A stretch of 64,000 nucleotides of DNA. It comes from Cryptosporangium aurantiacum (lineage in GTDB: Bacteria > Actinomycetota > Actinomycetes > Mycobacteriales > Cryptosporangiaceae). Under the pieces are notes generated by a model, which was not told the DNA's origin, searched no databases, and saw nothing but the letters and a program-made list of their open reading frames with translations. A program made the translations under genes and the position numbers. Numbering within the stretch: the stretch's first letter is position 1; each line of letters opens with the position of its first letter. Below, in pieces: positions 44,221-61,871 of this stretch. Location: positions 1-64,000 of the forward strand of contig NZ_FRCS01000009.1 of NCBI RefSeq assembly GCF_900143005.1, read 5' to 3'.

Positions 44221-45212
44221 CCACGCTCACCACCGCCCCGGCGCTGGAGATCAGCGACCTCGTCGTCCGGTACGGCTCGGGACGGAAAGCCCGCAACGCA
44301 CCGCCCGCCGTCGACGGCGTCAGCTTCGCGATCGCGCCCGGCGAGACGCTCGGCCTGGTCGGCGAGTCCGGGTCCGGCAAGTCGACGATCGGCAAGGCCG
44401 TGCTGGGGCTGCACCCACCGGCGGCCGGGACCGTGCGGTTACACGGCGAGGACATCACCGCGATGTCGCTCAAGCGCCGCAGCCGGTTCGCTGCGGACCT
44501 GCGGGTCGTGTTCCAGGATCCGTACTCCTCGCTGAACCCGGCGCGAACGATCGGCCAGACGCTGGTCGAGCCGCTGCGGCTGCTCGGCGTCCGCGGCCCG
44601 GAGGCGTTCGCCCGCGCCCGGGCCGCGGTGGAGTCCGTCGGACTGCCCGGCGACGCCGTCAACCGGTACCCGTCGCAGTTCTCCGGCGGCCAGCGGCAGC
44701 GGGTCGCGATCGCCCGCGCGCTGGTCTGCGACCCCAAGGTGCTGGTCCTCGACGAGCCGGTGTCGGCGCTCGACCTGTCCACCCAGGCGCAGGTGCTCAA
44801 CTTGCTCGCGGATCTGCGTGACGAGCACGGGCTGGCGTTCCTGTTCGTCGCCCACGACCTCGGCGTCGTGCGATTCCTCGCCCAGCGCGTCGTCGTCCTC
44901 TACCGCGGGCAGGTGATGGAGACCGGGGCGGTCGAGTCCGTCACCCAGGCCCCGCAGCACCCGTACACGGTCGCCCTGACCGCTGCGGCCCCGGTGCCGC
45001 GGCCGGCCGAGCAGGCCGCCCGCCGTACCGCTCGCGAGGCCCACGGGTTCGGCACCGCCGGTGCGGCGCAGCCCTCGCCGACCGGGTGCCCGTTCGTGCC
45101 GCGCTGCCCGCTGGCGACCGCGGTGTGCAGCGTGGAGCGTCCGCCGTTGCGGTTGGTGGGGGACAGCCACACGGCGTGTCACCACGCCGGGCGCGTGGAG
45201 ACCCTGCGATGA
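44217..45212 (+). CDS. ABC transporter ATP-binding protein, DppF-like (331 aa)
   Basis: Second ATPase of the importer. Walker A is GESGSGKST, signature FSGGQRQRVAIARAL, Walker B VLVLDEPVSALD, switch VAHDLGVVRFLAQ. The C-terminal oligopeptide-transporter domain has TGCPFVPRCPLATAVC with conserved Cys. It forms a heterodimer with the ATPase part of the preceding fusion protein. The start and stop overlap both neighbours by ATGA. Confidence 0.93.
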   Translation: MTTLTTAPALEISDLVVRYGSGRKARNAPPAVDGVSFAIAPGETLGLVGESGSGKSTIGKAVLGLHPPAAGTVRLHGEDITAMSLKRRSRFAADLRVVFQDPYSSLNPARTIGQTLVEPLRLLGVRGPEAFARARAAVESVGLPGDAVNRYPSQFSGGQRQRVAIARALVCDPKVLVLDEPVSALDLSTQAQVLNLLADLRDEHGLAFLFVAHDLGVVRFLAQRVVVLYRGQVMETGAVESVTQAPQHPYTVALTAAAPVPRPAEQAARRTAREAHGFGTAGAAQPSPTGCPFVPRCPLATAVCSVERPPLRLVGDSHTACHHAGRVETLR

Positions 45213-45916
45213 ACCTGGAGACGTCGATCCGGTTGCTGTCCGGCGAGGGCGTGTGGACGACCCAGCCGGTTCCCGAGATCGGGCTGCGGGCGATGACGCT
45301 CTCCGACGGGCCGGTCGGCGTGCGCGGCGGCACCGACACCGAACTTGACCCGGCCGCGGTGCTGCCCACCGGCTCCGCGATGGCGGCGTCCTGGGACGAG
45401 GACCTGCTGCACCGGATCGGCGGTGTGCTCGCGGGCGAGGCCGTGCGCAAGGGCGTCGACGTCGTGCTCGGACCGACGATCAACCTGCACCGCTCGCCGC
45501 GCGGCGGCAGGCACTTCGAGTGTTTCAGCGAGGACCCGCTGCTGTCCGGTCGCCTGGCCACCGCGTACGTGCGGGGCGTGCAGGAGAACGGCGTGGGCGC
45601 GTGCCCGAAGCACTACATCGCGAACGACGCGGAGACCGACCGGACCACGGTGGACAACCAGGTCGACGAGCGCACGCTGCGCGAGCTGTACCTGGCGCCG
45701 TTCGAGGCGGTGGTCGCCGACGCCAGGCCGTGGATGATCATGGCCGCGTACAACGGCGTCAACGGCGCACCGATGACCGAGAACGACCTGCTCGCCGAGC
45801 CGCTGAAGGGCGAGTGGGGCTTCGACGGCCCGCTCACGCTCGCCACCGGCCCGTCCGCCGGCGCCGTCCACGTCTCGGCCACCGTGCCGATCACCCCGGA
45901 AGGAACCCTCGCGTGA
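45209..45916 (+). pseudogene. GH3 beta-glucosidase remnant with in-frame internal deletion (235 aa)
   Basis: The first 200 residues are a normal GH3 N-terminal barrel: LSGEGVWTTQPVPEIGLRAM, LSDGPVGVRGG, APTV-like LGPTINLHRSP, GGRHFECFSEDPLLSG, ACPKHYIANDAETDR and MIMAAYNGVNGAPMTEN. The text then reaches GEWGFDG, where a GH3 enzyme continues with VVVSDW and its nucleophile Asp. Here it jumps to PLTLATGPSAGAVHVSATVP, which looks like the very end of a GH3 protein (the fibronectin-like tail). About 500 or more residues, including the nucleophile and the second domain, are missing, yet the frame and both 4-base overlaps are intact. It should be inactive as a glycosidase. Confidence 0.75.
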
Positions 45917-51590: not shown

Positions 51591-52232
51591 GTGCAGGAAC
51601 ATGGTGACTCCCCGCAGCCGGGCCGAACCCCCGAGCGCATCGCGTTCTTCACGGACGCGGTCTTCGCGATCGCGATGACGCTGCTGGTCATCGAGATCCC
51701 CCGGCCGGAAGGCACCGAATTCGACCACATGGACGGGGCCGCGAACCTCGCCCGCTTCCTGGGCGCGCAAGCCGGTTCGTTCTACTCCTGCCTGCTCGCG
51801 TTCCTGCTCCTCTGGCTCGTGTGGCGACGAAGCCACGAACTGCTCGACAGCGTCGACCGCGTCTCGCCGGGCGTCGTCGCCTGGCATTTCCCGCTGTTGC
51901 TGCTGGCGGCGTTCCTGCCCTATCCCACCACGATCGTCGGGCACTTCCCCGGCAATCCGGTGGCGGCGGCGTTCTACGGGATCGCGGTCGGGGCGCTGCT
52001 GGTCTGCCGCGCGGTGCTGGAGCAACTGGCGTACGACGCCGGCGCGCTGCGTCCGCACGTGGACCGCGCCCGGATCCGCCGCAACGTCGTGATCATTCGG
52101 ATCGCGACTGCGTACTGGCTGCTGACGCTCCTGCTCGTGTGGTGGGCGCCCTGGATCCAGGTCGCCTGGTTCGGAACCTTCGCGGTCTGGTTCGCCGCGC
52201 ATCTTCTCCTTCGGAGGTCGAGTGATGACTGA
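51591..52232 (+). CDS. TMEM175-family (DUF1211) membrane protein, putative K+ channel (213 aa)
   Basis: The signature of bacterial TMEM175 proteins is present at the start: RIAFFTDAVFAIAMTLLVIE, with Thr in place of the usual Ser of the FSD motif. About six helices follow: LLAFLLLWLVWR, HFPLLLLAAFLPYP, FYGIAVGALLVC, YWLLTLLLVWW and FAVWFAAHLLL. Bacterial members form tetrameric potassium channels. The GTG at 51591 gives the normal short N-terminal tail. It is the first gene of the right-hand operon; the stop overlaps the next start by 8 bases. Why a channel would lie with a flavoprotein and a methyltransferase is not clear. Confidence 0.85.
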   Translation: MQEHGDSPQPGRTPERIAFFTDAVFAIAMTLLVIEIPRPEGTEFDHMDGAANLARFLGAQAGSFYSCLLAFLLLWLVWRRSHELLDSVDRVSPGVVAWHFPLLLLAAFLPYPTTIVGHFPGNPVAAAFYGIAVGALLVCRAVLEQLAYDAGALRPHVDRARIRRNVVIIRIATAYWLLTLLLVWWAPWIQVAWFGTFAVWFAAHLLLRRSSDD

Positions 52233-52503
52233 TCCGCTCCGGGCGCGGGCCGTCCAGCAAGTGCGCAGGAAGCGCGGTCTGCAGGTGCACGCGCTGTGGT
52301 TCGTGCTGGTGACCCTGATCTTGATCGTGGTGTGGCTGATCTGGCTCCGGACGATCTTCTTCTGGCCGCTGACCGGACTGCTGCCGTGGGCCGTCGGGCT
52401 GGCGTTCCACGCCTGGGCCGTCTACAACCCGTCCGAGCTCGACGACGCACGCGTCGAGCGCGAGATGAGCCGGCTGCACCACCGTCGGCCGACGCCGGAC
52501 TGA
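52225..52503 (+). CDS. 2TM-domain small membrane protein (92 aa)
   Basis: A short protein with two membrane helices (LHALW-like VHALWFVLVTLILIVVWLIW and ITFFWPL-like FFWPLTGLLPWAVGLAFHAW), basic ends and the RARAVQQVRRKRGL start typical of the 2TM (DUF2061-like) group found next to sensor kinases and other genes. GGAGG lies 6-10 bases before the ATG. It sits between the TMEM175 and methyltransferase genes with almost no spacing. Function unknown. Confidence 0.78.
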   Translation: MTDPLRARAVQQVRRKRGLQVHALWFVLVTLILIVVWLIWLRTIFFWPLTGLLPWAVGLAFHAWAVYNPSELDDARVEREMSRLHHRRPTPD

Positions 52504-52506
52504 CGC

Positions 52507-53088
52507 GTGTCGTTCCTCCTGGAGTTCGTGCGCGCTCCCCTGCTGGTCGGTGCCGTCGCGCCGAGCAGCTCGGCGCTGGCCAGGGTCGCGACCACGGTGG
52601 TGCCGCGCACCGGTGCGCCGGTCGTCGTCGAGCTCGGCCCCGGCAACGGCTCGTTCACCGGCGCGATCCAGCAGCGGCTGGCGGGGCGCGGCCGGCACAT
52701 CGCGGTCGAGCTCAACCAGCGGTTCGCCGAGCGGCTGCGAGGCCTCCACCCGGGCGTCGACGTGGCCAACGTCGACGCGGCCGACCTCGGCACGGTGCTG
52801 ACCGACCGAGGGCTCGACACCGCCGACGTCATCGTGAGTGGACTGCCGTGGGCCGCGTTCAGCACCGGCAGGCAGCTGGCCGTGCTGTCCGGGGTGGTGG
52901 CGGCGCTTCCGCCGCACGGGGTGTTCACGACCTTCGCGTACGTGCACGCCCGCTGGGCAGGCCCGGCGCGGCGGCTGCTCGATTCGCTGCACGTCCACTT
53001 CGACGAGGTGGTCGTCGGCCGGACGGTGTGGGCCAACCTTCCGCCGGCGCTGGTCTACCACTGCCGTCGCCCGAACGAGCGAGGTTGA
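52507..53088 (+). CDS. SAM-dependent methyltransferase, PmtA/KsgA-like (193 aa)
   Basis: A class I methyltransferase. Motif I is VVVELGPGNGSFTGAI, motif II AVELNQRF and the VDAADLG acidic loop follows; motif IV is IVSGLPWAAF, the xxGLPW form seen in phospholipid N-methyltransferases and rRNA dimethylases. The N-terminal SFLLEFVRAPLLVGAVAPSS matches the start of PmtA-like proteins. The C-terminal RTVWANLPPALVYHCRR is also typical. It may methylate phosphatidylethanolamine or a small lipid-like molecule. The stop is 2 bases before the flavoprotein start, so joint translation is likely. Confidence 0.82.
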   Translation: MSFLLEFVRAPLLVGAVAPSSSALARVATTVVPRTGAPVVVELGPGNGSFTGAIQQRLAGRGRHIAVELNQRFAERLRGLHPGVDVANVDAADLGTVLTDRGLDTADVIVSGLPWAAFSTGRQLAVLSGVVAALPPHGVFTTFAYVHARWAGPARRLLDSLHVHFDEVVVGRTVWANLPPALVYHCRRPNERG

Positions 53089-53090
53089 CC

Positions 53091-55559
53091 ATGGAGCAGT
53101 TCGACGCCGTCGTCATCGGGTCGGGCATCGGCGGGCTGGCGGCGGCCCGCGCGCTCGCACAGTTCGGCCACGCCCGGGTGCTCGTCCTCGAACAGCACTA
53201 CACGCTCGGCGGCATGACCCACGAGTTCTCCCGCGACGGACGCTACGAGTTCCCGACCGGGATGCACTACCTGGGCGCGGGCTCCGCACCGTTCCTCGAC
53301 TTCCTGACCGACGGAAAGGCCCAGTTCGCGCCGCTGCCGGACGAATTCGAGGTGCTGCACCTCGCCGGAGGCGAAGAGTTCCCGATCCCGGCGTCCGGAG
53401 ACCGCTTCCGGGCGCGGCTCAAGGAACAGTTTCCCGACGAGGCTGACGCCGTCGACCGGTTCTTCGCCACGGTCGGCCCGGCGCGCACCGGGCTGGCGGC
53501 GCGCAACGTCCTCTCCTCGTTCCCCGCGGTCGTCCGCCGGCTCGGCTTCCCGATCGTCGAACGGCTCTACCCCGCGACGTACCGGACGCTGCACGACCAG
53601 CTCGCCCGCCACTTCCGCGACCCGCGGCTGCGTGCGGTGCTGGCGGCGCGCTGGCAGCTCTACGGCACACCGCCCGAGGCTGCCGCGTTCGGCTACCACG
53701 CGAGCATTCCACTGACGTACTACTCCGACGGCGGCACCCATCCCGTCGGCGGCCCGAAAGCGATCAGCGGTCTGATCCTGGAGAGCCTGGAACGCCGCGG
53801 TGTGCTGCTCCGCCCGCGCCAGCAGGTTCACCGGATCCTGGTCGAGCGTGGCCGGGCCGCCGGCGTCGAGGTCGAGGACCGGGCCACCGGTCAGCGCTAC
53901 GAGGTGCGCGCCCCGACCGTCGTCTCCGGAGTGGGCGTCCGCAACACGTACGCCCTGCTCGGGCGGGAGCTTCCCGAGCTGCCCGCGGAGATGTCGACGC
54001 TCATGCTGTTCGCCGGTCTGACGAAGTCACCGGCCGCGTTCGGCATCCGCGGCGAGAACCACTGGTTCGTCGAGGACGACTCGCTCTACGTCTCGTTCGC
54101 TTCGCTCAACGACCCCGCAGCGCGGTTCCACACCGTCGAGGTCCTGCAACTCGTCGATCCGAGCCATTTCGACGCCTGGCGCGGCGCCGATCGCCCGGAG
54201 GAGTACCGCGCGTTCAAGGACGCGACGATCGACCGGATCGTCCGGCGCCTGGACGAGCACTGGCGCGGCTTCGCGGACAACGTCGCGTTCACCGAGCTCG
54301 CCACGCCGCTCACGTTCGAGACGTACCAGCGGAGCGCGCGCGGCGCCTTCTACGGCCTGTCCGCGACTCCGCAACGTCTCCGTTCCGACGTCGCCGGGTG
54401 CCGCACGCCGGTCAAGGGTGTGGTCGTGGCCGGTCAGGACGCCTGGAACGCCGGTGTGCTCGCCGCCGCGGCGGGCGGTTTCATGGCCGCCAACGCGGTG
54501 CTCAAGCCCCGCCAGGTGCAGGCCATGTGGCAGGCGATCCGCGCCCCGCAACCAGCGTCCACACCGTGGAGCGGCTACCTACGGGTCAGCCGGATCGAGT
54601 CGCTGACGCCCACCGTCCGGCGGATCCGCCTCGCACCCCTCGACGGCGACACGCTGCCGTTCTCGTTCACCGCAGGACAGTACGTCACGGTCGGGCTGCC
54701 GGTCGCGGTCGAGCCGATCGAGCGCTCCTACTCGATCTGCAGCGACCCCGCCGAGCGGAGTTTCGTCGAGATCGCGGTCAAACACGAACCCCAGGGGCTC
54801 GGCTCGACGTTCCTGCACGAGGAGGTGGAGACCGGGCAGGCGCTGCGGGTGACCGGCCCGCTCGGCGAGTTCACCTACGAGCCGGGGCCGGGCACGCTGC
54901 TGCTCATCGCCGGCGGCATCGGGATCACGCCGCTGCTGAGCGTCGTGCGTGCCGCCGCGGGCTCCGGGCCGATCGTGCTGCTGGCCAGCTTCCGCGCCGG
55001 GGAGCGGCACCTCTTCGAGGACGACCTCGCGGCCCTGCGGGCCCGCGTCCCGGACGTTCAGGTCGTGCTCTACGGCGGCGGCCACGGCCGGATCGACCGA
55101 CGGGCACTGCAACCGCATGTTCGCGACGCCTCCCGCGTCCACCTCTGCGGGCCGCCGTCGATGATGCAGGACGTCTTGGGCCTGCTGACGACGCTCGGCG
55201 TGCCACGCGACGCGATCCGCACCGAGGCGTTCGTGTCCGGGCACAGCACCCAGACGCGGCGGGAGCGGGCACACGCGATCGAGCTCGCCGCGACCGTCGC
55301 GGAGTTCACGATCACCGACGGCGACGGCGCGTTCCCGTGCCGGCCGGGGGAGACGATCCTCGGCGTCGCGAACGCCGCGCACGTCCCGTTCTCGCAGTCC
55401 TGCGGCGAGGGCGCCTGCGGTACGTGCCGGGTGCGGGTGCTCTCCGGTCACTGCGAGACCGACACCCGCGGCATGTTCTCCACCGACGAGCTGGACGCCG
55501 GCTGGCGTCTGGCCTGCCAGACCCTACCCACCGAAGACGTCCGGATTGGAAGGTCATGA
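53091..55559 (+). CDS. Phytoene-desaturase/retinol-saturase-like flavoprotein fused to ferredoxin reductase and 2Fe-2S ferredoxin (822 aa)
   Basis: Three enzymes in one chain. Residues 1-about 480 form a CrtI/RetSat-type flavoprotein: VVIGSGIGGLAAARALAQFG, YEFPTGMHYLGAG, HPVGGPKAISGLILE and a C-terminal VVVAGQDAWNAGVLAAAAGG. Residues about 493-730 are a ferredoxin-NAD(P) reductase: RSYSICSDP for FAD, IAGGIGITPLLSVV and HLCGPPSMM for NAD(P). Residues about 733-822 are a plant-type ferredoxin with Cys771, Cys776, Cys779 and Cys809 (Cx4Cx2Cx29C). Electrons from NAD(P)H could pass through FAD and the iron-sulphur centre to the first flavin, so a self-sufficient reductase or saturase acting on a polyene or similar lipid is the best inference. 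The ATG overlaps no gene; the stop overlaps the hydrolase start (ATGA). Confidence 0.88.
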   Translation: MEQFDAVVIGSGIGGLAAARALAQFGHARVLVLEQHYTLGGMTHEFSRDGRYEFPTGMHYLGAGSAPFLDFLTDGKAQFAPLPDEFEVLHLAGGEEFPIPASGDRFRARLKEQFPDEADAVDRFFATVGPARTGLAARNVLSSFPAVVRRLGFPIVERLYPATYRTLHDQLARHFRDPRLRAVLAARWQLYGTPPEAAAFGYHASIPLTYYSDGGTHPVGGPKAISGLILESLERRGVLLRPRQQVHRILVERGRAAGVEVEDRATGQRYEVRAPTVVSGVGVRNTYALLGRELPELPAEMSTLMLFAGLTKSPAAFGIRGENHWFVEDDSLYVSFASLNDPAARFHTVEVLQLVDPSHFDAWRGADRPEEYRAFKDATIDRIVRRLDEHWRGFADNVAFTELATPLTFETYQRSARGAFYGLSATPQRLRSDVAGCRTPVKGVVVAGQDAWNAGVLAAAAGGFMAANAVLKPRQVQAMWQAIRAPQPASTPWSGYLRVSRIESLTPTVRRIRLAPLDGDTLPFSFTAGQYVTVGLPVAVEPIERSYSICSDPAERSFVEIAVKHEPQGLGSTFLHEEVETGQALRVTGPLGEFTYEPGPGTLLLIAGGIGITPLLSVVRAAAGSGPIVLLASFRAGERHLFEDDLAALRARVPDVQVVLYGGGHGRIDRRALQPHVRDASRVHLCGPPSMMQDVLGLLTTLGVPRDAIRTEAFVSGHSTQTRRERAHAIELAATVAEFTITDGDGAFPCRPGETILGVANAAHVPFSQSCGEGACGTCRVRVLSGHCETDTRGMFSTDELDAGWRLACQTLPTEDVRIGRS

Positions 55560-56236
55560 TCAGCAACGTTGTTCTCGTCCACGGAGCCTGGGTCGACGGG
55601 TCCGGCTGGCGAGCCGTCCACGATCTGCTCATTGCCGACGGCTTCGCGGTGAGCGTCGCCCAGAACCCGACCGTCACCCTGGCCGACGACGCGGCCGCCG
55701 TCCGGCGGGTGCTCGACCAGCAGACCGGCCCGACGATTCTCGTCGGGCACTCCTACGGCGGGGCGGTGATCACCGAGGCCGGCACGCACGAGAACGTCGT
55801 CGGGCTGGTCTACGTGGCCGCGTTCGCGCCGGACAAGGGGGAGAGCGTGAACAGCCTGATCCCGGAGCCGCAGCCGGGCACGCCGGTGCCGCCGATCTTG
55901 CCGCCGGCTGACGGTTTCCTGCTCCTCGACCGGGAGAAGTTCCCCGAGGCGTTCGCCGCCGACCTGCCCGCCGACGAGGCCCGTTTCCTGGCCGCGTCGC
56001 AGACGCCCTGGGGGCTGGGCGCGATCGGCGGTGTGATCACCGAAGCGGCGTGGCGGACCAAGCCGAGCCGGTACCTGCTCACCACCGCCGACCGGATGAT
56101 CCCGCCGGCCGGCCAGCGAGCGATGGCCGACCGCATTGGGGCGCGGGTGACCGAGGTGGCCGCCAGCCACGCCGTCTACGTCTCGCAGCCGGCCAGCGTC
56201 GCGGCGCTGATCAGGGAGGCAACCGCGACGGCATGA
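55556..56236 (+). CDS. Alpha/beta hydrolase, HNL/esterase-like (226 aa)
   Basis: A small alpha/beta-fold enzyme of the hydroxynitrile-lyase/salicylate-esterase-like group. It opens with NVVLVHGAWVDGSGWRAVH. The nucleophile Ser is in LVGHSYGGAVI and the His in ASHAVYVSQP near the end. DRMIPPAGQRAM holds the likely acid region. No signal peptide. Its ATG overlaps the flavoprotein stop (ATGA), so it is probably part of the same pathway, possibly hydrolysing an ester substrate or product. It is the last gene before a 72-base gap and the BTAD regulator. Confidence 0.85.
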   Translation: MISNVVLVHGAWVDGSGWRAVHDLLIADGFAVSVAQNPTVTLADDAAAVRRVLDQQTGPTILVGHSYGGAVITEAGTHENVVGLVYVAAFAPDKGESVNSLIPEPQPGTPVPPILPPADGFLLLDREKFPEAFAADLPADEARFLAASQTPWGLGAIGGVITEAAWRTKPSRYLLTTADRMIPPAGQRAMADRIGARVTEVAASHAVYVSQPASVAALIREATATA

Positions 56237-56308: not shown

Positions 56309-59300
56309 GTGTCGCTGCACCTCCAGGTTCTCGGCCCGCTACGGGTCTGGCGCGACGGCCTCGAACAGGATCTCGGGCCGCGGCAGCAGGCATACCTGCT
56401 GGCCCTGCTCCTGGCTCGCGTGGGCAAGCCGATCAGCACGAGCGAGCTGATCGACCTGATCTGGGACGAGGCCGCTCCCAGCAGCGCGCTCAACGTCATC
56501 CAGAAGTACGTCGGTGTCCTGCGGCGGTTGCTGGAACCGTCGCTCCCCGCCAGGGCGACCGGCTCCTACCTGCACCGTCGCGGGAACTCGTACCTGTTCA
56601 CCGCCGCTCCCGGCACGCTGGACCTCGTCGCCTTCCGCGAACTCGTCGACGCGGCGAGGGCCCAGCGTGACCGCGAAGCGGCGCTCGATCACTACGTCGA
56701 GGCGCTGGGCCTCTGGCGTGGCCCGGCCGGCAGCGGAATCGCGGAGGGAATGAGTACGACCACGGTCTTCGCGCCACTGGACGACGAGTTCTACCGCGTG
56801 TGCACCACCGCAGCCGAGCTCGCCGTGTCGCTCGGGCGACCACAGCGGGTACTTCCCGCGCTGCGGCTGGCGTCCTCGATGGCGCCCTTCCACGAGCCCG
56901 TGCACGCCGGTCTCGTCAGCGTCCTCGGAGCCGCCGGACGCCAGGCGGAGGCGCTGGCGGCGTTCCGCACGGTCCGCGATCGCCTGGCCGACGAGCTCGG
57001 CATCGACCCGAGTCCGGCGCTGGAGGAGGCGCATCAGCGAGTGCTGACGCGACCGCCGCTCCCGGTGCCCGCGGACGACGGGGAGAGCTCCGGGCTGGTC
57101 GGCCGGGCCGCCGAGTTGGCGGTGCTCCGGAGCGCCGTGCAGAGCGCGCTCACCGGCCGCACGGCGATCACCGTCCTCGACGGTGAGCCGGGCGTCGGCA
57201 AGACGCGCCTGCTGGAAGAGGCCGCCGCCTTCGCCGCCCGGCATGGTGCGCTCGTCGCCTGGGGCTCCTGCCTGGAAGGCGACGGAACGCCCTCCATGTG
57301 GCCCTGGGAACAGGCGCTCGGCACGATCGTCGACAGGTCCCCCGCGCCCGAGGTGTGGCTCAGCGGCGAGCTCGCGAGCATTCTGCGGCCACGGGATTCC
57401 GTCGGCGCGGCGGTTCCCGACGGCAACGCCCAGTTCCGCTTGTTCGAACAGGTCGTCAACCTGATCGGGCACGCCTCGGCACAACAACCGACGCTGTTGA
57501 TCTTCGACGACCTCCAGTGGGCCGACGTCTCCTCGCTGCAGTTGTTCAAGCACGTGGCCGGTCGATTGCCCGCGGGCACGACGATCGTCGGGGCTCTGCG
57601 CGACCGCGCGCCCATGCCCAGTTCCGAGCTCTCGCAGGTGCTGGCCGCGGCCAGCAGGCGGCCCGGTCACCGCAGGCTGCGGATCGGCCCGCTCAGCGCG
57701 GCCGACGTGGCCGAACTCGTGCGCTCCGAATCCGGCTCCGATCCGGGCGACGACGTCACGCGTGCCATCCACGCCCGCACCGCGGGCAACCCGTTCTTCG
57801 TGCTCGAGCTGTCCCGGTTGCTCAGCGAGGCCGGCACGCTCGGAGTTCCGTCCACCGTGCGCGACGTCGTCCGCGACCGAATGGCCGGCCTCGACGATCG
57901 GGTGGGCGATCTGCTGCGCATCGCCGCGCTCATCGGCCGCAACGTCGACGTCCGGCTGCTCGCGCGCGCGGCAGGCGTCGACGTCGCCGGCTGCCTGGCG
58001 CGTCTGGAGCCGTTACAGGCCCTCGGCCTGCTGGAACCCGGCCAGGACGAACCCTCGTCGCTACGCTTCGCGCACGACCTCGTCCGCGAGTCGGTCTCCG
58101 AGACCACCACGACCCAGCAGGTCACCCGGCTACACCTCCGCGTCGCGGACGCGCTCGAACAGACCCATGCCGACGACGACGAGGCCGCGGAGCAGCTGGC
58201 TTATCACCTGTGGGCCGCCGGACCGCTCGCCGATCCCGCCCGCACCGCAGGGGCACTGATCCGCGCCGGGCGGTGCGCGGCGAACAAGCTCGCGTTCGAG
58301 TCCGCCAACCGGCACCTACGTTCCGCGGTGCGCGCCACGCGGGCGGCGGGTCTGATGGAGCTTGAGCTCTCGGCCCTGACGCTGCTGGCGATCGTCGTCC
58401 GCAGGTATTCGGTGTACGACGCTTCGATGTTCGACATGCTGGAACGCGCCGAGTACCTGGCCGGCACGCTCGGCCGGAGCGCCGAGGCGGCCGACTTCGC
58501 GTTCATCCGCATGATGGGCGCCTACACCTCGATCGATGAAGGCCGCGGAGCGCTGGCCCAGCGGATGCGCGAGGACGGTCTGATGTCCTCCGACCCGGCC
58601 GTCCGCCGTTACGGCCGGCACGCGTGGGGCCTGCACCAGTGGGACATCGGCAACATCGGCGAGGCGTACCGGTGCTTCGTCGAGGAGGACGACGATGACG
58701 CGCCGGACGAGGAGACGCCGCTGCGCCGGGGCGGCAGCATTCCGGGCGAGGGGCCGGGCTGGCGGGCCGTGATGACCGCGCTGCACGGTGACGTCGAGAC
58801 CGCGCTGGCGTTCGTCGACACCTGGGACACACCGGACGATCCGTACGCGGCGTCGGTATGGGTCTACTACACCGCCATGATCGCGTCGATGGCCGGTGAC
58901 GCTCCTCTGGCCCGGCGTGCCGGTGAACGCTGGGCCTCGGCCGGCCTCGACCGCCTCACGTCCCAGCTCGAGCACTACATCCGGCAGGACTGGTGCTGGG
59001 CGCGCGCCGTCACCGGTGACGACTCGGCCGCCGCGGCGGCCGAGGCCGAGAAACTCGTGACCGCCGAGCTTCTCGACCCGCCGCAGTGGGGCATCGCCTA
59101 CCAGTACGCGCTAGTCGCCGAGGCGTGGCTGGCCGCTGGAGAGCCGGACCGGGCCGAAGCCGCGCTGGACCGGGCCGATCAGGCGATCCGGGACTACGGC
59201 CAGCGCTACGCCGAAGGGTTGCTCCTGCTGGTGCGCGCCCGCGTGTCGTTGTCCCGCGGTGAACCCCTCGCCGTGGTCAGGGCCGCCGCGGAACGTGCCT

Positions 59301-59383
59301 GTGCACTGTCGACCGCCCGCGAGGCGCACCTCTTCGCGCGGCGGGCCCGCCGATTCCTCAGCGAACTGGGAGCCGACGCATGA
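56309..59383 (+). CDS. BTAD-domain regulator with AAA-type ATPase (SARP-like, 1024 aa)
   Basis: A large pathway-type activator. The N-terminal winged helix (LQVLGPLRVWRDGLEQDLG to TGSYLHRRGNSYLF) is followed by a BTAD domain (about 100-245, ending AFRTVRDRLADELGIDPSPA), the SARP layout. Next is an AAA/STAND ATPase: Walker A LDGEPGVGKTRLLEE (about 295), Walker B TLLIFDDLQWAD, and further helices with TPR-like repeats to the end. Regulators of this form often lie next to and activate specialised-metabolite genes in actinomycetes. The GTG at 56309 is used. The stop overlaps the aminotransferase start (ATGA), and the flavoprotein operon lies directly upstream. Confidence 0.9.
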   Translation: MSLHLQVLGPLRVWRDGLEQDLGPRQQAYLLALLLARVGKPISTSELIDLIWDEAAPSSALNVIQKYVGVLRRLLEPSLPARATGSYLHRRGNSYLFTAAPGTLDLVAFRELVDAARAQRDREAALDHYVEALGLWRGPAGSGIAEGMSTTTVFAPLDDEFYRVCTTAAELAVSLGRPQRVLPALRLASSMAPFHEPVHAGLVSVLGAAGRQAEALAAFRTVRDRLADELGIDPSPALEEAHQRVLTRPPLPVPADDGESSGLVGRAAELAVLRSAVQSALTGRTAITVLDGEPGVGKTRLLEEAAAFAARHGALVAWGSCLEGDGTPSMWPWEQALGTIVDRSPAPEVWLSGELASILRPRDSVGAAVPDGNAQFRLFEQVVNLIGHASAQQPTLLIFDDLQWADVSSLQLFKHVAGRLPAGTTIVGALRDRAPMPSSELSQVLAAASRRPGHRRLRIGPLSAADVAELVRSESGSDPGDDVTRAIHARTAGNPFFVLELSRLLSEAGTLGVPSTVRDVVRDRMAGLDDRVGDLLRIAALIGRNVDVRLLARAAGVDVAGCLARLEPLQALGLLEPGQDEPSSLRFAHDLVRESVSETTTTQQVTRLHLRVADALEQTHADDDEAAEQLAYHLWAAGPLADPARTAGALIRAGRCAANKLAFESANRHLRSAVRATRAAGLMELELSALTLLAIVVRRYSVYDASMFDMLERAEYLAGTLGRSAEAADFAFIRMMGAYTSIDEGRGALAQRMREDGLMSSDPAVRRYGRHAWGLHQWDIGNIGEAYRCFVEEDDDDAPDEETPLRRGGSIPGEGPGWRAVMTALHGDVETALAFVDTWDTPDDPYAASVWVYYTAMIASMAGDAPLARRAGERWASAGLDRLTSQLEHYIRQDWCWARAVTGDDSAAAAAEAEKLVTAELLDPPQWGIAYQYALVAEAWLAAGEPDRAEAALDRADQAIRDYGQRYAEGLLLLVRARVSLSRGEPLAVVRAAAERACALSTAREAHLFARRARRFLSELGADA

Positions 59384-60540
59384 CCCTGAGTGCCCTGGCC
59401 CGCGGCCTCAACCCGCCGAAGGGCTTCGTCGACGCCAGCATGGTCAACCCGGCGCCCGACGCGATCAGCTTGCTGGGCGGTGTTCCCGCGACCGAGCTGC
59501 TGCCGACCGACGCGGTCCGGCGGGCGTCGGCGCAGCTGTGGGACGACCGCGACGCCGGACGCGCGGCGCTGCGGTACTCGCCGGCGCACGGGTTCCCCAC
59601 GCTGCGGGAGTGGATCGCGGCGAGGGAAGGCGTCGAGGAGAACCGGGTCGTGGTGACGAACGGCGGCATGCACGGGCTGACGCTGGCCGTGCTGACGATC
59701 GTCGAACGGGGCGCCACGGTCGCGGTCGACGACCCGGTGTTCCCGGGGTTCCTCTGGGCGCTGGAGGTGTCGACGTCGCAGACCCTGCCGGTGCCGGTGG
59801 TCGACGACGGCTTCGACGTCGAGTATCTCGCCGAGCGGCTCGCAACCGGCGAGCGGATCGCGGCGGCCTACACCGTGCCCGACTTCCACAACCCGTCCCA
59901 GGTCACGCTGTCGGCGGCGAAGCGGCAGGCGCTGGTCGATCTGGCCGAGCGGTACGACTTCTACGTGATCGCCGACGACCCGAACCGCGCGCTGCGCTTC
60001 GCCGGCCAGGACCAGGGCGTGACGGCCTTCCACTCCTCGGACCGGGCGATCCACGTCAACACGTTCTCCAAGACGCTCGGCCCTGGCTGGCGAGTGGGCT
60101 GGCTGGTGCTGCCCGAGCACCTCGTCGAACCGGTGATCCGGCTGCGCAACCGCCTCGACGTGCACACCTCTTCGGTGAACCAGGCCCTCGTCGAGCGGCT
60201 CTTCACCGGCTACGACGAGATCGTGCGCCGCGCCGCCGACGTATATCGGGAGCGCGCCGCCGTCCTGGTCGATGCGCTCCGGTCCCAGCTGCCCGGCGTC
60301 TTCGACGTCCGGGAGCCCGAAGGCGGCATGTTCCTCTGGCCCCGCCTGACCGACGACAGCATCGACCCCACCGCGCTGTTCCGCCGTGTCGTCGCCGGCG
60401 GCGTGATCTACCAGCCGGGCGAGTACTTCGCGGCGTCGCCGCAGCGGTCCACGGCCCGCCACCTGCGCTTCGCCTACGCCGACCGCACCCCGGACGAACT
60501 GCGGGAAGCGGTGCGGCGGCTGGCCCGGGCCTTCGCATGA
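59380..60540 (+). CDS. PLP-dependent aminotransferase, class I/II (386 aa)
   Basis: A fold-type I aminotransferase of the 2-aminoadipate/MocR-like branch. Motifs are LRYSPAHGFPTLREWIAARE, VVTNGGMHGLTL, FPGFLWAL, VPDFHNPSQVTLS, Asp in IADDPNRALRF, the PLP-binding Lys in NTFSKTLGPGWRVGW and the carboxylate-binding Arg in RHLRFAYA. The length is normal and no helix-turn-helix part is present. It transfers an amino group between an amino acid and a keto acid; the substrate is unknown. It overlaps both neighbours by ATGA. Confidence 0.9.
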   Translation: MTLSALARGLNPPKGFVDASMVNPAPDAISLLGGVPATELLPTDAVRRASAQLWDDRDAGRAALRYSPAHGFPTLREWIAAREGVEENRVVVTNGGMHGLTLAVLTIVERGATVAVDDPVFPGFLWALEVSTSQTLPVPVVDDGFDVEYLAERLATGERIAAAYTVPDFHNPSQVTLSAAKRQALVDLAERYDFYVIADDPNRALRFAGQDQGVTAFHSSDRAIHVNTFSKTLGPGWRVGWLVLPEHLVEPVIRLRNRLDVHTSSVNQALVERLFTGYDEIVRRAADVYRERAAVLVDALRSQLPGVFDVREPEGGMFLWPRLTDDSIDPTALFRRVVAGGVIYQPGEYFAASPQRSTARHLRFAYADRTPDELREAVRRLARAFA

Positions 60541-61871
60541 AGCTACCTCTTCGCGGGATTGCGCCGTTCGCCGCCGGCTCGATCGGCATGGGCATCTGGG
60601 TCACCGTTCCCGGCATCTTCCTGCTGTACTTCCTGACCGACGTCCTGGCCGTGCCGCCGCTCGTCGCCGGACTCGCCGTGTTGCTGCCGAACATCGTCGA
60701 CGTCGTGCTGCACCCGTGGGTGGGCCGGCTCTCCGACGCCGACCTCGCTCGCCGCGGCCACCGCCGAGGGCTGATGTTCGTCGGCTGCCTGGTGGTGCTC
60801 GCCTTCGTGGCGATCTTCGTTGTGCCCTCAGGCCTGCGGGGGACACCGGCCGCGGTCTGGGTCGGGACCGCGCTCGTCGTCGGCAACCTCCTGTACGCCG
60901 CCTACCAGGTGCCGTACCTGGCCACGCCCGCCGAACTCGGCATCGGCTACCACGAGCGCACCCGTCTGATGGGTTACCGCAGCGTCGTCATCACGGCCGG
61001 GGTGCTGGTCAGCGGCGTGGTCGCGCCGTTGATCGCCGGCGACGACCCCGGCGTCAACGACTACGCGCGGATGGCGCTGGTGCTCGGTCTGGTCATGCTC
61101 GTGGCGATGCTGGCCGGGATCGACGGCATCGTGCGGCTCCACCGGGCTGCGCCGGCTCCCCCACCCGAGCCGGGGCACGGCACCGGGTTGCTGGTGGCGC
61201 TGCGCGACCGGCACTTCCGTGCGCTCACCGCGTCGTATCTCATGATGGCGATCACGATGAACCTGGTGCTGGCCGCCCTGCCGTACTTCGCCGAATACGA
61301 GCTGGGGCAGCCGAAGTTCACCTCTGTACTGGTTGCGGCGTTCATGACACCCGCCGTGCTGGTCACGCCGCTGTGGGTGCTGGTGGCCCGCCGCGCCGGC
61401 AAGCAGCGCGGCCTGCTCGCGGCGCAGGGACTGTTCGTCGCCGGGGCGCTGCTGCCCCTGGTCGGTGGATTGCCGGTCGTGCTGGGCGCGATGGTGATGC
61501 TGGGCGTCGCGTTCGCAGGCATGCAGCTGATGCCGCTGTCGATGGTGCCCGACGTCGTCGCCGCCTCCGGGCCCGGCGGTACCGCGAACGCGGGCAGCTA
61601 CACCGGAGTGTGGACCGCCGCGGAGGCCACCGGCGGTGCGCTGGGCCCGTACCTGTTCTCCGCCTGCCTCGCGGTGGGCGGCTTCGTGGCCACCTCCGCC
61701 GGCGAACACGTCACGCAGTCGCCAACCGCGCTCGCCGCGGTGCGTTACGGATTCACGGTGGTGCCCGCCGTGCTCATGACGGTCGGCGTCGTGCTACAGC
61801 GCCGCTACACCCTTGACCGCAGCGCCGCCTCGGGCAGCGACCTCGAGGAAGTGGGAGTTGGTCGGCCTTAG
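60537..61871 (+). CDS. MFS transporter, GPH (sugar:cation symporter)-like (444 aa)
   Basis: About twelve membrane helices. The conserved loop VLHPWVGRLSDADLARRGHR after the second helix and the YQVPYLATPAELGIGYHERT segment are those of the glycoside-pentoside-hexuronide symporter group. QLMPLSMVPDVVAAS in the second half is also typical. Family members move sugars, sulfo-sugars or betaine-like compounds with Na+ or H+. It is coupled to the aminotransferase (ATGA), so it may import its substrate or export a product. It is the last gene of the regulator-aminotransferase-transporter run. Confidence 0.88.
   Translation: MKLPLRGIAPFAAGSIGMGIWVTVPGIFLLYFLTDVLAVPPLVAGLAVLLPNIVDVVLHPWVGRLSDADLARRGHRRGLMFVGCLVVLAFVAIFVVPSGLRGTPAAVWVGTALVVGNLLYAAYQVPYLATPAELGIGYHERTRLMGYRSVVITAGVLVSGVVAPLIAGDDPGVNDYARMALVLGLVMLVAMLAGIDGIVRLHRAAPAPPPEPGHGTGLLVALRDRHFRALTASYLMMAITMNLVLAALPYFAEYELGQPKFTSVLVAAFMTPAVLVTPLWVLVARRAGKQRGLLAAQGLFVAGALLPLVGGLPVVLGAMVMLGVAFAGMQLMPLSMVPDVVAASGPGGTANAGSYTGVWTAAEATGGALGPYLFSACLAVGGFVATSAGEHVTQSPTALAAVRYGFTVVPAVLMTVGVVLQRRYTLDRSAASGSDLEEVGVGRP

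Follow-up and report, generated by a model that had tools for sequence, protein, structure and literature searches.

Cryptosporangium aurantiacum is a bacterium of the phylum Actinomycetota, and the window analysed here is a stretch of 64,000 nucleotides of its genome (contig NZ_FRCS01000009.1, positions 1 to 64,000 of the forward strand). One gene in the window raises the question of what an FAD domain resembling carotenoid desaturases, carotenoid isomerases and retinol saturases does when a complete NAD(P)H-dependent electron chain is attached to it in the same polypeptide. An earlier description, made from the DNA alone and termed the sequence-only reading below, had reported a single frame of 822 residues at 53091-55559 with three domains, and had placed the cysteines of the iron-sulphur cluster at residues 771, 776, 779 and 809; the frame and the domains were borne out, and the cysteine positions proved exactly right. 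The gene and its domains are as follows.

53091..55559, + strand: fusion gene, 822 aa, encoding a CrtI/CRTISO/RetSat-like FAD domain, an FAD/NAD(P)H reductase and a C-terminal [2Fe-2S] ferredoxin domain
53091..54530, + strand: CrtI-family FAD domain (residues 1-480), with a GSGIGG dinucleotide motif at residue 10
54558..55232, + strand: reductase, FAD_binding_6 and NAD_binding_1 (residues 490-714), with RSYSI at 545, GGIGITP at 608 and CGP at 686
55311..55556, + strand: plant-type Fer2 domain (residues 741-822), with Cys 771, 776, 779 and 809

The frame runs from an ATG at 53091 to a stop at 55559 with no internal stop codon, and a GAGG motif lies 7 bases 5' of the ATG. Pfam matches above the gathering cut-offs cover the N-terminal part (FAD_binding_2, NAD_binding_8 and Amino_oxidase, residues 5-471) and the C-terminal part (FAD_binding_6, 498-596; NAD_binding_1, 605-695; Fer2, 746-814). 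GC content by codon position is uniform along the frame (GC3 of 0.88-0.96 in each 100-codon block) and so gives no hint of separate genes having been joined at a domain border. The fusion recurs in eight further genomes at 62-80% identity (nine genomes in all, termed clade A), which excludes a chance arrangement and, together with the even codon composition, rules out both an assembly artefact and a read-through from one gene into the next, the former being an objection that the sequence-only reading had itself raised. One of these orthologues comes from the same genus (80% identity) and seven from another family of the same order (62-67%), and all nine proteins keep the GxGxxG motif, the RxYS flavin motif and the C-x4-C-x2-C...C cluster motif. 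The distribution of the fusion is patchy: within the order 3 of 399 genomes have it, and within the family that was searched in depth 7 of 151. A peptide-pattern scan of genome contigs for close relatives gave two remote partial matches only, and the full three-domain architecture is absent from plasmid records, where the halves occur only separately.

The best NCBIfam model for the N-terminal domain is the carotenoid isomerase family TIGR02730, with 111.9 bits in two pieces against a cut-off of 586.9, and the score for the CrtI family TIGR02734 (81.2 bits) also lies below its subfamily cut-off of 238.1 bits; no RetSat model is among the NCBIfam or Pfam matches of the fusion protein. At the level of the fold the protein does fall within the CrtI superfamily, as judged from the GSGIGG motif at residue 10 and from a match to 4rep with a Z score of 33.8 over 445 residues (rmsd 3.0, 19% identity), a comparison made with the first structure model of the fusion protein. 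The best solved-structure matches for this domain are carotenoid desaturases, namely 4rep (gamma-carotene desaturase) and 4dgk, and in predicted viral structures the only matches are general amine-oxidase-like ones. By curated cut-offs, then, the fusion protein is neither a CRTISO nor a CrtI, and what it has in common with them is the CrtI-type fold and FAD motif. The C-terminal module has the domain order of the phthalate dioxygenase reductase/PaaE type (FAD_binding_6, NAD_binding_1 and a C-terminal Fer2), with RxYS and C-x4-C-x2-C...C, and scores 150.3 bits with the PaaE model TIGR02160, below the equivalog cut-off of 420.8 bits. In the first model, built from an alignment of 19 rows, the Fer2 domain was unfolded (pLDDT <50); an AlphaFold2 model with 28 rows, including rows from the second group of fusions described below, reached a mean pLDDT of 86 and a pTM of 0.80. 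A Foldseek search with the whole C-terminal module of this 28-row model retrieved 7ylr, 6laa, 2pia and 6kbh, and sequence search agrees.

Each part of the protein has a known counterpart. CRTISO (TIGR02730) and RetSat share with the fusion protein a full-length CrtI-superfamily FAD domain, in a comparison that draws on the CRTISO family model, but neither carries an attached reductase or ferredoxin. The CrtI, CrtD and gamma-carotene desaturases (4dgk, 4rep) share the fold, but they are oxidative and have no attached electron chain. Phthalate dioxygenase reductase (2pia) and the PaaE-type enzymes have the same succession of flavin domain, NAD domain and C-terminal plant-type ferredoxin; they differ in being stand-alone proteins that serve oxygenases. 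The nearest parallel to the whole is the self-sufficient P450 CYP116B (6kbh, 6laa), in which a C-terminal reductase and Fer2 in the same order are joined to a catalytic redox domain and feed the enzyme's own haem. The catalytic part of CYP116B is a haem P450, whereas a Pfam scan of the fusion protein found no N-terminal P450 domain and the corresponding position is taken by the CrtI-like FAD domain. In the simplest reading, the fusion protein would work like CYP116B with a CrtI-type catalytic head. No paper describing this three-domain architecture was found in the literature searched (many subscription papers lie outside its reach), in agreement with the sequence-only reading, which knew of no such enzyme. 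The fusion is real, conserved and recurrent, and its parts are of known kinds; in the literature searched the combination is apparently undescribed.

The architecture is not confined to the gene in which it was noticed. A second group of fusions (clade B) comprises about 15 proteins from small-genome members of the phylum. At the roughly 15 loci fetched, a single polypeptide of about 880 aa contains all of the domains, an architecture that Pfam confirms for clade B; the sequence-only reading was right about the architecture and missed both this clade and a two-domain form. The latter, at L028:6110-8389 (genome G436), encodes 760 aa, with a RetSat-like FAD domain followed by a reductase that ends just past the NAD domain and lacks the ferredoxin, and it is possibly a third, independent joining. 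A further fusion, found with an FAD-domain search and running off the end of its contig (L034, genome G709), led to genome G664, in which stand-alone genes on the same strand encode a RetSat-like protein of 502 aa and, starting 68 bp after it, a reductase-ferredoxin protein of 394 aa. A search with this 502-aa protein matched 35 of 396 genomes of the phylum, and such split pairs, with the RetSat-like gene followed by the reductase-ferredoxin gene on the same strand, occur at five loci (G664, G611, G485, G506 and G495). The cysteine cluster motif is kept in all 23 fusions checked, every complete clade B member included, and in all five of the split reductases.

Whether these forms share one origin was examined with trees of the two parts. 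In a FAD-domain tree of fusions, split forms and stand-alone genes, the nine clade A proteins stand apart from clade B (15 fusions and five split forms), and starred branches with stand-alone genes separate the two. A constraint that unites A, B and the split forms is rejected with an AU p of 1.1e-5, and one that unites A and B alone with a p of 2e-79, both in a quick tree with groups picked after viewing. Since the FAD-domain tree rejects one fusion clade, at least two joinings are likely on these sequence data. The alternative concerns origin and not function, namely that after one ancient fusion the reductase part was lost or split off several times; it accords with the reductase-domain tree, which does not reject a single clade (p 0.41) and in which the placement of the L028 reductase, on a long branch, is untrustworthy. 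Against the FAD-domain result, and with stand-alone genes separating the two fusion clades, a single fusion seems rather unlikely.

Under either origin a strong Rosetta-stone argument applies: because the same two parts have been fused repeatedly and also occur as split gene pairs, the FAD domain and the electron chain are expected to work together. The conserved cofactor motifs, the two fusion clades and the split neighbours at five loci support well the built-in electron chain of the sequence-only reading, and comparative sequence data of this kind argue strongly that electrons from NAD(P)H reach the CrtI-like FAD. Phthalate dioxygenase reductase and CYP116B-type modules pass electrons outward from NAD(P)H. 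In the fusion protein NAD(P)H would reduce the flavin of the middle reductase domain, and the C-terminal [2Fe-2S] domain would act as a one-electron carrier from that flavin; the electrons would end on the FAD of the N-terminal domain, which in its reduced form would hydrogenate a C=C bond of the substrate. RETSAT, which also belongs to the wider family, saturates C=C bonds of retinol and apocarotenoids (PMC4947394). On balance, we think it somewhat probable from sequence comparison that the fusion protein is a self-sufficient, NAD(P)H-driven flavoenzyme that reduces C=C bonds (a saturase) and whose substrate is hydrophobic, either a polyene, an isoprenoid or an unsaturated acyl compound. What we infer here is the direction and the route of the electrons, net reduction over isomerisation, and the class of substrate, and the self-sufficient saturase or reductase of the sequence-only reading stays conditional in the same way; the N-terminal family also includes a reduced-FAD isomerase and desaturases.

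The isomerase is the next candidate. TIGR02730 is the best N-terminal family model, and the CRTISO reaction of plants and cyanobacteria, although non-redox, requires reduced FAD, which is the working form of the enzyme; CRTI with reduced FAD can isomerise too (PMC3382138). The reductase and ferredoxin would on this account merely hold the FAD reduced in air, with zero net reduction. We regard this as unlikely, given that the TIGR02730 score is far below the CRTISO cut-off and that the priming or repair of a flavin hardly requires a covalent, stoichiometric electron supply, probably gained more than once. It is this covalent, stoichiometric supply of NAD(P)H electrons that leads us to rank the saturase best, the isomerase second and the oxidative direction least likely.

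An oxidative desaturase, in which the attached ferredoxin and reductase would drain substrate electrons to NAD(P)+ or another acceptor, would fit the top solved-structure matches (4rep and 4dgk, both carotenoid desaturases) and the need of CrtI-type desaturases for an electron acceptor. Electron transfer from C-C desaturation to NAD+ would be uphill, however, the C-terminal module is of the reductase type that draws electrons from NAD(P)H, and CRTI hands its electrons to O2 or quinones (PMC3382138), so that we give this direction little credence. It is equally improbable that the parts are joined for co-expression only, with the module serving another acceptor in trans (a P450 or a non-haem oxygenase) or with the N-terminal FAD reacting with O2. 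The module is indeed of the oxygenase-reductase type (PaaE, BenC, CYP116B), but the gene families that the nine genomes conserve within about 20 kb of the fusion include no oxygenase, and the pairing is repeated in clade B and as gene pairs.

We tentatively suggest that self-sufficient C=C saturases of this kind would form a new class, which arose at least twice when an NAD(P)H-flavin-[2Fe-2S] chain was attached to different flavoproteins of the CrtI/RetSat type. If this is true, natural saturases of the CrtI superfamily use a ferredoxin-type one-electron supply, which would hint at the electron donor that is still missing for RetSat-type enzymes. To our knowledge, the cellular electron donor of RetSat and CRTISO is not settled; the fusion, clade B and the split pairs name a concrete donor chain for enzymes of this type, and a single purified protein would be enough to test it. 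Biocatalysis, too, could make good use of an alkene reductase that accepts hydrophobic substrates and draws on NAD(P)H through its own electron chain, comparable to CYP116B and P450 BM3 among the P450s.

For the nature of the substrate, the surroundings of the genes were compared. In the window, the genes next to the fusion are as follows.

52225..52503, + strand: small 2TM-domain membrane protein (PF13239)
52507..53088, + strand: SAM methyltransferase resembling the lipid N-methyltransferases OlsG/PmtA, below their cut-offs; ends 2 bp 5' of the fusion gene
55556..56236, + strand: alpha/beta hydrolase (Abhydrolase_6), its start overlapping the fusion-gene stop
56309..59383, + strand: BTAD-AAA ATPase regulator (AfsR/SARP type)
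59380..60540, + strand: class I/II aminotransferase
60588..61871, + strand: MFS_2 transporter

Although a genome has no more than one or two copies of the 2TM gene, in seven of the nine genomes, spanning all five genera, a copy is found less than 2 kb from the fusion; an alpha/beta hydrolase gene (3-11 copies per genome) lies within 4 kb of the fusion, likewise in seven of nine. The chance expectation for this proximity of the 2TM and hydrolase genes is below 1e-7, even when counted per genus. The BTAD regulator is found within about 4 kb or less in five of the nine genomes. Since the hydrolase and BTAD genes also pair elsewhere in clade A genomes, part of their association with the fusion is indirect; together with the 2TM gene they seem to make up a separate module which the fusion joins. 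The 2TM protein might serve the fusion protein as a partner in the membrane if the latter acts on a lipid-soluble substrate. With no fusion nearby, the rare 2TM gene adjoins a hydrolase or BTAD gene at G853:C9:30913-40401, G860:C1:3679830-3680911, G890:C20:73609-83587 and G846:C1:6013811-6014905. The aminotransferase and the MFS_2 transporter are near the fusion also in genome G896 (L050), and a more distant aminotransferase-like gene is present in G853 (L047).

The sequence-only reading had taken the methyltransferase and hydrolase on either side of the fusion as a sign of substrates that are methylated and esterified. The hydrolase is indeed a conserved neighbour, but a methyltransferase near the fusion is common to the window and G890 only; because it is kept in just these two of the nine genomes it was dropped as a functional partner and left out of the evidence on the substrate. 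With the methyltransferase so rarely kept and the hydrolase naming no substrate, the argument for methylated and esterified compounds is weak. Indeed the clade A context as a whole (hydrolase, 2TM and BTAD genes) names none, which is a point against the saturase.

In clade B, an enzyme that we name enoyl-CoA hydratase from its sequence is encoded nearby at 15 of 17 loci, thiolases at 13, acyl-CoA dehydrogenases at 8 and ChsH2-like OB-fold proteins at 7, with a ligase also among these acyl-CoA neighbours. This context points to unsaturated acyl chains as the substrates of clade B, although the same need not hold for clade A. Clade B fusions often have further stand-alone RetSat-like genes beside them in acyl-CoA degradation operons, with as many as four consecutive copies (L098:1590-6715 in G516, L088 and L092). 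At L033:238-8381 (G534), a stand-alone RetSat-like gene ends a cluster with a putative acyl carrier protein, ketosynthases and dehydratases; by their sequences these look like a type II polyketide or aryl-polyene-like cluster, which suggests polyene substrates for this stand-alone relative.

Two other features of the window were observed. A TMEM175-like potassium channel gene (51591-52232) lies directly 5' of the 2TM gene and was not seen as a conserved neighbour at the eight remaining fusions. At 45209-45916, a GH3 frame of 235 aa, which adjoins two complete GH78 alpha-rhamnosidases, covers part of the GH3 N-terminal domain only and is probably truncated.
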